Assembly (NCBI GenBank): GCA_002747975.1
Contig: PDRA01000008.1
Span: 1-37,723 of the forward strand
Source of the DNA: Candidatus Altimarinota bacterium
GTDB taxonomy: Bacteria > Patescibacteriota > Gracilibacteria > BD1-5 > UBA2023
DNA: 37,723 nucleotides
Direction of reading: 5' to 3'
The translations under genes and the position numbers were made by a program. Shown here piece by piece: positions 1,589 to 25,057 of the stretch. Each line of letters opens with the position of its first letter. Within the stretch, counting starts at the first letter, position 1. The notes beneath the pieces are model-generated. The model did not search any database. It was not told where the DNA came from and worked only from the letters and a program-made list of their open reading frames with translations.

Positions 1589-1664
1589 GCATCCATAGCT
1601 CAATTGGAAGAGCGCCGGTCTTCGAAGCCGTAGGTTGTAGGTTCGAGCCCTACTGGATGCACCA
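1589..1664 (+). tRNA. tRNA-Arg (anticodon TCG)
   Basis: Cloverleaf: acceptor GCATCCA pairs with TGGATGC, D-stem GCTC/GAGC, anticodon loop CTTCGAA giving anticodon TCG, T-arm GTAGG-TTCGAGC-CCTAC, A73 and an encoded CCA (1662-1664). The D-loop has an A at position 20, an arginine identity element. The anticodon stem closes with a C-T mismatch at 27/43. The 3' part from T-loop position 57 is duplicated downstream at 1807. Confidence 0.93.
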
Positions 1665-1733
1665 TACCTCATTTTTGTATTTTACATCATTCTTATACAG
1701 AATATAATTTTTTGTACAAGACAGGGCGAGAAT
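1645..1733 (+). repeat. Direct repeat, copy 1: tRNA-Arg 3' end plus flank
   Basis: 89 bases running from T-loop base 57 of tRNA-Arg through the acceptor, CCA and about 69 bases of downstream flank. It is repeated at 1807-1895 with six differences, all transitions. The flank holds an inverted repeat (CTTATACAGAA with TTTTGTACAAG) that could fold into a post-tRNA hairpin. Confidence 0.9.
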
Positions 1734-1808
1734 CTGAGCGGTTTACGAGAAATGCGTTGAATCGCATTTCGAGAGCGAAGAGAGCCGGTCGGCGGCGGAG
1801 AGCCGAGA
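1733..1808 (+). repeat. tRNA-linked structured repeat, copy E1
   Basis: Identical to bases 1-76. Hairpin arms GAAATGCG (1749-1756) and CGCATTTC (1763-1770) enclose loop TTGAAT. Further hairpins are GCCG/CGGC (1784-1787 with 1790-1793) and GGC/GCC (1794-1796 with 1802-1804). It is much more GC-rich than its surroundings. It lies exactly between the two copies of the tRNA-Arg 3' end and flank. No reading frame is apparent; a structured RNA or non-autonomous mobile element is the best guess. Confidence 0.8.
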
Positions 1809-1895
1809 GCCCTACTGGATGCACCATACCTCATTTTTGTATTTTGCATCATTCTTGCACAGAATATAGTTTTCTGTACAAGATAGGGCGAGAAT
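1807..1895 (+). repeat. Direct repeat, copy 2: orphan tRNA-Arg 3' end plus flank
   Basis: Second copy of 1645-1733. It starts at T-loop base 57 (GAGC, then CCTAC, TGGATGC, A, CCA) with no 5' half, so it cannot be a tRNA by itself. All six differences from copy 1 are transitions and the flank hairpin can still fold (CTTGCACAGAA with TTCTGTACAAG, one mismatch). tRNA-Leu starts nine bases after it. Confidence 0.9.
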
Positions 1896-1903
1896 GTTAT
1901 TTT

Positions 1904-1987
1904 GCTCGGGTGGTGGAATTGGTAGACACGTACGCTTGAGGGGCGTATGCCTATGGCGTGGGGGTTCAAGTCCCCCCTCGAGCACCA
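1904..1987 (+). tRNA. tRNA-Leu (anticodon GAG)
   Basis: Class II tRNA: acceptor GCTCGGG with CTCGAGC (one G-T pair), anticodon stem TACGC/GCGTA around TTGAGGG giving anticodon GAG, a variable arm, T-loop TTCAAGT, A73, and CCA at 1985-1987. It has no promoter of its own and is probably co-transcribed with tRNA-Arg. Its 3' end is duplicated at 2161. Confidence 0.93.
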
Positions 1988-2040
1988 TTGGTTATAAACA
2001 AAAGAAACTTCTTCATTTGAAAGAAGTTTTTTATTTTATA
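1967..2040 (+). repeat. Direct repeat, copy 1: tRNA-Leu 3' end plus flank
   Basis: Begins at T-loop base C56 of tRNA-Leu and runs through the acceptor, CCA and the downstream terminator hairpin. It recurs at 2161-2236 with a few substitutions and small indels. Confidence 0.85.
2005..2034 (+). terminator. Rho-independent terminator after tRNA-Leu
   Basis: Stem AAACTTCTT (2005-2013) with AAGAAGTTT (2021-2029), loop of seven, running into a T-rich tail. In the downstream duplicate (2190-2228) the stem is degraded by an indel, so the functional terminator is this one unless transcription reads through into element E2. Confidence 0.75.
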
Positions 2041-2160
2041 GGAACTTGGGGACTTGAATAGAGGACAATTTTCTTTGAAAAAAGAAAATTAAAAAATGCC
2101 TTGAATGGCATTTTTGTGTCCGAGCCGTCTCTGGCAAGGAGCGAAAGCGACTGAGAAGAA
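2041..2160 (+). repeat. tRNA-linked structured repeat, copy E2
   Basis: Structured element between the two tRNA-Leu 3' copies. Outer pairing GGAC (2063-2066) with GTCC (2118-2121) encloses two hairpins. The first has arms AATTTTCTTT and AAAGAAAATT (2067-2090) with a GAAA tetraloop. The second has arms AAAAATGCC (2092-2100) and GGCATTTTT (2107-2115) around the invariant TTGAAT loop. A GAGCC...GGC hairpin (2123-2135) and a GCGAAAGCG segment follow, then GAGAAGAA and the orphan tRNA end. Sequence differs from E1 but the order of parts matches. Confidence 0.75.
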
Positions 2161-2236
2161 CAAGTCCCCCCTCGAGCACCATTGGTTACAAACAAAAAAA
2201 ACTTCTTCATTTGAAAGAGTTTTTTTTATTTTGTAT
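2161..2236 (+). repeat. Direct repeat, copy 2: orphan tRNA-Leu 3' end plus flank
   Basis: Starts CAAGT (T-loop base 56 onward), then the T-stem, the acceptor strand CTCGAGC, A and CCA, then the same flank as 1988-2040 with a weakened terminator stem. No 5' tRNA half precedes it. From here to the promoter at 2311 I see only AT-rich sequence. Confidence 0.85.
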
Positions 2237-24617: not shown

Positions 24618-24710
24618 GGTGGGTTACTCAAGAGGCTGAAGAGGCGGCTTTGCTAAAGCTGTAGGGTGCCGCAAGGTGCCGCGGGGGTTCGAATCCCCCA
24701 CCCACCGCCA
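24618..24710 (+). tRNA. tRNA-Ser (anticodon GCT)
   Basis: Class II tRNA: acceptor GGTGGGT/ACCCACC, anticodon stem CGGCT/AGCTG around TTGCTAA giving anticodon GCT, a long variable arm (GGTGCCGCAAGGTGCC), T-arm GGGGG-TTCGAAT-CCCCC, G73 and CCA at 24708-24710. G73 and the long arm are serine identity features. Its 3' end is duplicated at 24870. Confidence 0.93.
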
Positions 24711-24778
24711 TTGTTTTTTTGGACAAAGTATCATATATGGAATAATATATGATTTTCGCACAAAATTTGGGATTCGAA
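24690..24778 (+). repeat. Direct repeat, copy 1: tRNA-Ser 3' end plus flank
   Basis: Runs from T-loop C56 of tRNA-Ser through CCA and 68 bases of flank ending in ATTCGAA. It recurs at 24870-24957. The flank holds a hairpin: ATCATATAT with ATATATGAT around GGAATA. Confidence 0.9.
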
Positions 24779-24869
24779 AAGAGTCCCGAGCGAAAGCGAG
24801 AGAAAGTCAATTGAATTTGACTTTCGTGGACGAGCCGTCTCCGGCAGTTTGCGAAGCAAACGAGAGGAA
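24779..24869 (+). repeat. tRNA-linked structured repeat, copy E3
   Basis: Outer pairing GTCC (24783-24786) with GGAC (24828-24831). Inside are a GCGAAAGC segment with a GAAA loop and the signature 9-bp hairpin GAAAGTCAA (24802-24810) with TTGACTTTC (24817-24825) around loop TTGAAT. These are followed by GCCG/CGGC (24834-24837 with 24842-24845) and GTTTGC/GCAAAC (24847-24852 with 24856-24861), then GAGAGGAA and the orphan tRNA end. Same order of parts as E2, with different stem sequences. Confidence 0.78.
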
Positions 24870-24957
24870 CGAATCCCCACCCACCGCCATTGTTTTTTTG
24901 GACAAGGTATCATGTATGGAATAAGATATGATTTTCGCACAAAATTTGGGGTTCGAA
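24870..24957 (+). repeat. Direct repeat, copy 2: orphan tRNA-Ser 3' end plus flank
   Basis: Starts at T-loop C56 (CGAAT), with one C fewer in the T-stem run than the tRNA gene, then the acceptor strand ACCCACC, G73, CCA and the same flank with a handful of substitutions. It ends at GGGGTTCGAACCCC (24948-24961), which is itself T-arm-like. tRNA-Met begins 24 bases later. Confidence 0.88.
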
Positions 24958-24981: not shown

Positions 24982-25057
24982 GGGCCTGTAGCTCAGTGGT
25001 TAGAGCAGTCGGCTCATAACCGATTGGCCGTTGGTTCAATCCCAACCAGGCCCACCA
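24982..25057 (+). tRNA. tRNA-Met (anticodon CAT)
   Basis: Acceptor GGGCCTG/CAGGCCC is fully paired, D-arm GCTC/GAGC, anticodon loop CTCATAA, T-arm TTGG-TTCAATC-CCAA, A73, CCA at 25055-25057. The paired first base argues against initiator tRNA, which has an unpaired base 1. Elongator Met is most likely; a lysidine-modified tRNA-Ile2 cannot be excluded. No structured repeat follows this tRNA. Confidence 0.88.

Follow-up and report, generated by a model that had tools for sequence, protein, structure and literature searches.

What are the short sequences that stand behind several tRNA genes of a Gracilibacteria genome, each closed by a second copy of the 3' end of the tRNA in front of it? We approached this question in a window of 37,723 nt (the whole stretch of DNA analyzed), which is contig PDRA01000008.1 of assembly GCA_002747975.1 (contig C4 of genome G000, a 41-contig draft of 984,708 bp and 92% completeness). 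ARAGORN places four tRNA genes in it: Arg (1589-1664), Leu (1904-1987), Ser (24618-24710), and Met (24982-25057). Behind the first three, a sequence-only reading of the window had described the order tRNA, flank, element, second tRNA 3' end, and flank again, and our analysis confirmed it. The corresponding direct repeats lie at 1645-1733 and 1807-1895 for Arg (89 nt, 93%), at 1967-2037 and 2161-2231 for Leu (71 nt, 92%), and at 24696-24778 and 24875-24957 for Ser (83 nt, 95%). The junction was said to be shared to within one base, and it is: the second copies start at T-loop nt 57 (Arg) or nt 56 (Leu and Ser), with the Ser copy one C shorter than the gene. Between each tRNA and the structured element (here called E) lie 57 to 60 nt. 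That reading had missed that the left end of E repeats nt 56-65 of the preceding tRNA in reverse complement (P0L), that the second Leu and Ser flanks end in an inverted T-arm copy or nearly so, and that window nt 1-94 hold the tail of a further unit, which carries a tRNA-His 3' end. The features, all on the plus strand, are as follows.

1-76, plus: 3' part of an element E of type B, probably belonging to the tRNA-His at the start of contig C37
77-94, plus: second copy of the tRNA-His 3' end, ACCCCATTATTCGCCCCA
1589-1664, plus: tRNA-Arg (UCG), intact; its nt 56-76 are 1644-1664
1665-1723, plus: first flank of the Arg unit
1724-1733, plus: left arm GGGCGAGAAT of the Arg unit, an imperfect inverted T-arm (6/9)
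1734-1806, plus: element E, type B, of the Arg unit
1807-1895, plus: second tRNA-Arg copy (nt 57 to CCA) and second flank, with the left-arm sequence GGGCGAGAAT at its end
1904-1987, plus: tRNA-Leu (GAG), intact
1988-2047, plus: first flank of the Leu unit, with a terminator-like hairpin
2048-2056, plus: P0L, an inverted copy of tRNA-Leu nt 56-64, GGGGACTTG
2057-2160, plus: element E, type A, of the Leu unit, with P1, H1, H2, the CGTCTCTGGCA motif, and H4
2161-2181, plus: second copy of tRNA-Leu nt 56-76, paired with P0L over its first 9 nt
2182-2253, plus: second Leu flank, homologous to the first, with an inverted T-arm copy GAGACTTG at its end; truncated second unit
24618-24710, plus: tRNA-Ser (GCU), intact
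24711-24767, plus: first flank of the Ser unit
24768-24776, plus: P0L, an inverted tRNA-Ser T-arm copy, TGGGATTCG (8/9)
24777-24869, plus: element E, type A, of the Ser unit, with a hairpin CGAGCGAAAGCGAG common to E. coli rtT
24870-24889, plus: second copy of tRNA-Ser, nt 56 to CCA, one C shorter
24890-24957, plus: second Ser flank, with a near copy of the inverted T-arm at its end; truncated second unit

Since the second flanks end in a truncated P0L, we read them as tandem units cut short. The start of the window would adjoin the tRNA-His on contig C37 through their common tRNA-His 3' end, a join left unassembled in this draft.

The inverted tRNA sequence at the left end of E pairs with the second tRNA copy, so that a helix, P0, closes the element. 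A unit thus consists of a flank (often with a terminator-like hairpin), P0L, the structured E, and tRNA nt 56-76 once more in direct orientation; complete units carry the tRNA 3' end in cis. Over 29 loci, P0L lies 47 to 72 nt behind the CCA at 27 and 17 and 22 nt behind it at the other two. The paired fraction in P0 is 0.79 to 1.0 at nt 56-64 and 0.62 at nt 65, and beyond nt 68 it is about background (near 0.37). A full acceptor-T minihelix was therefore rejected, pairing past nt 68 being at or near background except at a few loci (L088, L096, and L101). The second copy is identical to the tRNA across 14 nt at 17 of these loci, while at five its acceptor half, CCA included, is degraded, with 8 matching nt of 14 at most. 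Behind tRNA-Cys of genome G024, the second copy has lost its match to the tRNA T-stem, with P0 kept.

Chance does not account for the copies. Among the 31 tRNAs of G000, six have their own nt 65-76 downstream (14 of 916 mismatched tRNA/flank pairs), and seven have their own nt 56-64 inverted (22 of 916 mismatched pairs). In five genomes (G000, G009, G018, G020, and G024), 25 of 146 tRNAs are followed by their own nt 61-76 in direct orientation, with 14 or more of the 16 nt matching. Identity in these copies starts at nt 56 (11 copies), nt 57 (10 copies), or nt 58, 59, 60, or 61 (one each), the sole nt-61 start being a Ser copy with a 1-nt gap. The sequence-only reading had staked its case on recurrence at other tRNAs and on nonrandom junctions; both were found, with 21 of the 25 copies from the five genomes starting at nt 56 or 57. 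All 25 lie within 330 nt of the CCA (the only range sought), which leaves no room for an integrase gene inside a unit.

Elsewhere in G000, the full order was found at Leu-tag, Leu-taa, and Asn-gtt, and Ser-tga has the left part of a unit with no second tRNA copy. Five of the 31 tRNAs have less than 150 nt of downstream sequence before the contig ends, and behind three of these five (Gln-ctg, Lys-ttt, and Leu-caa) the start of a unit is visible at the contig end. Other contigs open or close with unit ends bearing Leu-caa, His, or Gln-like 3' ends. The assembly breaks within or at the start of units (C3, C4, C5, C8, C17, C28, and C31), so unit counts are lower bounds. A separate observation concerns tRNA-Leu(UAG) on contig C7 (L009, G000:C7:75500-76700, minus strand): a copy of its 5' end, ATATGCCCAGGTGGTGGAATTGGTAGA, reaching to the D-loop, lies upstream of the gene, and two copies of another palindromic repeat, beginning CTCCCGAGAACGAGCATTCGATG, separate the two.

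The main subtype of E is made up of P1, two hairpins (H1 and H2), the conserved stretch CGTCTCYGGCA, and H4. Covariation supports this fold. In an alignment of 13 sequences, 77 cells carry two-sided changes and six carry one-sided changes, and on four of five measures the alignment lies above every one of 500 shuffles; the fifth, further pair types, is reached by 319 of 500 shuffles in the same 13 sequences. In 36 sequences, whose alignment was fitted to the covariance model and is hence biased towards it, 92.7% of cells are paired and 209 show two-sided changes, and none of 500 shuffles reaches either value. The helices differ in their share of GU pairs: H2 has 322 Watson-Crick pairs, one GU, and one other among 324 cells, H4 has no GU in 74, and the share is 1.5% in H3, 2.6% in P1, 8 of 261 in H1, and 4.4% in P0 (these counts, and the pair counts above, come from observations that are not independent of one another). 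Near-perfect Watson-Crick helices are the expected outcome of template switching (PMC8794818), and the almost purely Watson-Crick H2 and H4 therefore fit template switching or a DNA-level fold at least as well as an RNA fold. In 78 tRNA genes, the GU share is 6.3% in acceptor stems and 4.9% in T-stems; that of P0 is tRNA-like, and P0 does not stand out. Searches with Rfam models found no known family for E at gathering score within the window, and at eight loci, up to an E value of 0.5, they returned only tRNA and weak unrelated matches.

To follow E beyond the source genome, we used two covariance models. The core model (R1) matched 8 of 147 genomes, G000 among them. The full model (R2) found E in 23 of 77 genomes of the source's order (47 candidates scored per genome) and, in a shallower search across the phylum (nine candidates scored per genome), in 0 of 378 genomes besides G000; both searches lose weak matches, the phylum-wide one more so. 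Within the order, R2 gave 48 matches, 41 of them outside G000. We examined 28 of these 41, and a tRNA of the same strand lies directly upstream at 25, covering 13 amino-acid kinds; of the remaining three, one follows a different tRNA-like 3' end close to the start of a contig and two are without a tRNA. Direct inspection found an inverted or direct tRNA copy at 10 of 27 tRNAs in G018, at 11 of 26 in G024 (including Gln-ttg, probably by chance, and Pro, a remnant), and at 8 of 31 in G000, and thus more units than R2 detects. A pattern scan of viral contigs gave four matches, none with a tRNA within 600 nt. ARAGORN calls of SeC(UCA) at L030, L217, and L238 are probably tRNA-Gly(UCA) in this code-25 lineage. 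The open-licence part of the literature that we searched held nothing on tRNA-linked repeats in this bacterial group; the repeats treated in PMC6851277 lie in a protein gene.

E is 65 to 114 nt long in the set used to compare sequences between genera. Median similarity is 0.70 between elements of the same genus behind different tRNAs (n = 37), 0.64 between different genera behind the same tRNA (seven pairs only), and 0.62 when both differ (n = 360). Judged by these values, E resembles the E of its own genus more than the E behind the same tRNA elsewhere.

The repeats at E. coli tyrT have been known for decades, and RtT is characterized by a stable processed RNA and by encoding the protamine-like protein Tpr; to our knowledge, the origin of these repeats is unexplained. 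The sequence-only reading had pointed to them as a parallel, and the parallel is closer than it claimed, extending to the spacing, the closing helix, and the place of the second copy. At K-12 tyrT, the tRNA-Tyr 3' end recurs from nt 58 onward at +159, +337, and +515, an inverted T-arm copy stands about 59 nt behind the CCA, and a further unit lies between the two tRNA-Tyr genes. Behind E. coli tRNA-Pro (proK), P0L stands about 50 nt from the CCA and forms only 6 bp, and in the tRNA-Pro units of Klebsiella, Salmonella, and E. coli records, both P0L and the second copy are altered to fit that tRNA. Units at tyrT and proK are tandem and partly truncated. At K-12 proK (L256), the second rtT unit is cut short and is followed by GTAGGCCTGATAAGACGCG, which from its motif we take to be a REP sequence. 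The Rfam RtT consensus (RttR, RF00391) includes the P0-like closing helix, and the RttR annotation covers 171 nt, beginning 8 nt after the tRNA and ending at the second CCA. The tyrT unit is matched at least in part in 4,980 of 5,426 E. coli genomes, with most of the unit in one place in 1,920; strain ECO21 is without the unit between the two tRNA-Tyr genes, and the second flank stands there. The E. coli unit also matches 3 phage and 23 plasmid records, and the five examined are tRNA-Tyr or tRNA-Pro loci.

E units share two traits of RtT: a closing helix formed by an inverted T-arm and a second tRNA 3' copy ending in CCA, and a place directly behind a tRNA of the same strand, in tandem at some loci. 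The cores of rtT and of the window's Ser unit share the run CGAGCGAAAGCGAGAGAA. Likeness between the rtT and E cores has z values of 3.5 to 4.7 over 20 to 40 nt in four comparisons (reached by one to three of 500 shuffles), and R2 ranks the three rtT repeats first on the E. coli locus, although with E values of 0.26 to 0.41. The Rfam RtT model, in turn, has no match to E at gathering score in the window, nor up to an E value of 0.5 at eight loci. We regard the likeness of plan as strong and the common descent of E units and rtT as likely. The two differ in range: in the enterobacterial loci examined, rtT stands behind tRNA-Tyr and tRNA-Pro only, whereas G000, G018, and G024 have E-family copies at 8 to 11 tRNAs per genome.

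Next, we compared tRNA sites between congeners, and both occupied and empty states were found (Ser-gct, Leu-taa, Glu-ttc, and Thr-ggt). Between G018 and G024, the first 60 nt behind orthologous tRNAs match in 8 of 11 cases without E but in only 3 of 10 with E in either genome; the three are His (E in both), Val, and Thr-ggt (a match is a score above 14, the 99.9% point of the null, and in one Met comparison the two genes may not be counterparts). Ser-gct carries a unit in G009 but not in G020. The first flank, 54 nt long in G009, does not match the native gap of 21 nt in G020 (z = -0.8), while behind the second copy a 12-nt gap and the start of tRNA-Met do match (z = 19.9). This tRNA-Met, the next gene after Ser-gct in G020, is broken off after GCAGTCGGCT in G009 (L103). 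At Leu-taa and Glu-ttc, occupied in G018 and empty in G024, the empty flank is again unlike the first flank (z = 1.5 and 2.1) and matches the second (z = 9.9 and 7.9). At Thr-ggt, occupied in G024 and empty in G018, the first flank is a match to the empty one (z = 8.8, against 4.3 for the second flank). For Pro-tgg, a match arises only through the next tRNA, and Gln-ctg, also compared, was uninformative. By these comparisons, the flank before E is nonnative at three tRNAs, Ser-gct, Leu-taa, and Glu-ttc. Every model predicts native sequence behind the unit, so only the foreign first flank is informative. Since the unit is bounded by direct repeats, insertion in the T-loop and insertion right behind the CCA look alike, and loss of a unit gives the same picture as an empty site.

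The term "non-autonomous mobile element" had been proposed for these units. The many tRNAs served, the similarity of E by genus, the occupied and empty sites in congeners, and the lack of room for a gene all support it; in respect of movement itself, gain and loss both fit. The other proposal of the sequence-only reading, an RNA system dependent on a tRNA 3' end provided in trans, is called for by none of our results, complete units having that end in cis. One candidate route, target-site duplication with reverse transcription, was suggested by L100, where a 17-nt flank is repeated, and was rejected as not general, because three tRNAs have a foreign first flank and no RVT_1 was found in 11 of 23 carriers.

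We searched 76 genomes of the source's order for four enzyme families (these are drafts, in which absence is not proof), and none of the four could be linked to the units. Reverse transcriptase (RVT_1) was found in 12 of 23 carriers of E and not in 11, G000 and G010 among the latter. The TnpB-type family PF07282 exceeded its cutoff in 1 of the 76 genomes, which by the model is no carrier, and gave a weak match in one carrier (G006). Y1_Tnp (E value of at most 0.001) was found in 7 of 23 carriers, counting two weak matches in G010, and in none of the other 16; the drafts G000, G014, G020, G024, G025, and G039 yielded neither RVT_1 nor Y1. Neither a reverse transcriptase, as a retroelement would use, nor the Y1 or TnpB of IS200/IS605 and REP/RAYT is therefore a constant companion of E across the 23 draft carriers. 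The tyrosine recombinase family PF00589 occurs in 22 of 23 carriers (the exception, G025, is 78% complete), with one copy each in G000 (contig C33), G009, G018, and G024. Its presence says little, as 70 of the 76 genomes have it with or without E. The parallel drawn earlier with T-loop attachment sites is plausible, and the part that would need a recombinase tied to the units found no counterpart.

Integrative elements that use tyrosine recombinases rebuild the target tRNA with a 3' end of their own, leave the displaced 3' fragment at the far side, and have their junction in the T-loop. E units likewise show a rebuilt tRNA, a direct 3'-end repeat, and (except at Thr-ggt) a foreign flank beside the tRNA, but they are under 300 bp, lack an integrase, have an inverted arm specific to the tRNA, and serve many different tRNAs. 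Integron cassettes are bounded by attC sites that fold through inverted arms, form tandem arrays, and have the core site GTTRRRY. E units are similarly cassette-like, bounded by an inverted-arm fold, and tandem; they differ in having no gene, in showing no integron integrase, and in their T-loops, which are mostly GTTC and so do not fit GTTRRRY. REP/RAYT, Rickettsia palindromic elements, and RIME are small, palindromic, gene-less, and multicopy, as E units are; unlike these, E units are tied to the 3' ends of tRNA genes and include a tRNA copy, and 16 of 23 carriers showed no Y1.

On balance, and with modest confidence, we take the units to be RtT-like tRNA-tail cassettes: gene-less, non-autonomous, roughly 110 to 270 bp long, and placed directly behind tRNA genes. 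The E family is the counterpart of the rtT repeats across this lineage, large and divergent, and it is probably non-autonomous and mobile; E units and rtT together suggest a neglected class of tRNA-linked elements. Such a unit may enter through an exchange in the T-loop, at the tRNA 3' end or beside it, in which case the tRNA would always be rebuilt and the old 3' end displaced. The direct repeats would permit clean loss as well as tandem growth. P0L could be refitted to each new tRNA by copying between the inverted arms (template switching) or by selection. If transcription covers the unit, maturation of the tRNA 3' end at the second CCA could free a discrete RNA, comparable to the annotated rtT RNA.

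Two other readings compete with a mobile cassette. E could be an RNA that the host uses for regulation or tRNA surveillance, made from tRNA transcripts and kept by selection, with the tRNA 3' end as its processing signal. Such a role agrees with the strong covarying fold, with the many second copies still identical to their tRNA, and with the annotation of rtT RNA as a processed RNA ending at the second CCA. Three ortholog pairs differ at 18 of 318 positions in E (5.7%) and at 16 of 164 in the first flank (9.8%), and this somewhat greater conservation of E could mean host function. We nevertheless hold a host RNA to be rather unlikely, given that the set of E-bearing tRNAs differs between congeners, that R2 has no match in 54 of 77 genomes of the order (the model misses subtypes), that loss of the acceptor copy leaves P0 and E in place, and that inspection often finds a terminator-like hairpin between tRNA and E. 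Alternatively, template switching and unequal crossing-over at a hairpin-rich tRNA 3' end might build the units in place, with the E cores homogenized by gene conversion. The nearly pure Watson-Crick H2 and H4 are what template switching would give. Tandem and truncated units also speak for this, and the likeness of the first and second flanks at several loci (Leu-gag, Leu-tag, and Ser in G000, Leu-tag in G016, and Leu-gag in G020) fits local tandem duplication. Growth in place is still quite improbable in our view: the GU share of P0 is tRNA-like, the junction is fixed, the first flank is foreign at three tRNAs, and E itself has to come from elsewhere.

A retroelement, an RNA-guided transposon, or a Y1-type transposon as the driver is very unlikely. 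An RNA-like structured core is followed by about 20 nt identical to the target and mostly preceded by GTT, the right junction is fixed, and about half of the carriers have RVT_1, all of which speak for such a driver; the uneven record of RVT_1, PF07282, and Y1 in the carrier drafts given above stands against it. A guide RNA with the tRNA 3' end as its guide was likewise rejected on the grounds of mutated second copies and the lack of PF07282, and it is weakened further because P0 would hide the guide. Returning to the tRNA-tail cassette, a broader version, which we think unlikely, would make these units part of a widespread type of integrase-less cassette, with the tRNA T-arm as attachment site, P0 as its folded mimic, a host tyrosine recombinase or template switching as the agent, and an arm that is refitted; E. 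coli rtT, the Gracilibacteria family, and possibly rhizobial repeats would be its branches. With the same plan behind a dozen tRNA kinds, occupied and empty in close relatives, the origin of rtT becomes testable. The units also bear on how small gene-less elements target essential RNA genes harmlessly and on how inverted copies arise and remain matched.

The commonest H2 hairpin of the family occurs in 31 named records, nine of them titled Candidatus Gracilibacteria or Patescibacteria; the other 22 we assign, by our own grouping of the genera, to Rhizobiales or Bacteroidales/Bacteroidetes. At four Bacteroidales/Bacteroidetes loci (L183, L185, L199, and L208), the hairpin lies, like an intervening sequence, within what we take to be a 23S rRNA gene (antisense in the locus). 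An exact H2 hairpin, GAAAGCCAACGATTTGGCTTTC, is also found in rhizobial repeats of the form GGGTGAGGAGCGG, hairpin, H2, CGAGCGACGAACGCCC (among L180 to L209, e.g., L189 and L196), with no tRNA within 600 nt in those examined. A palindrome, ATGCTCGGG/CCCGAGCAT, encloses the repeat in its loop at L189. Part of the rhizobial repeat matches five Aminobacter/Mesorhizobium plasmids (H64 to H68), in four of which it lies under an annotated site-specific integrase gene.
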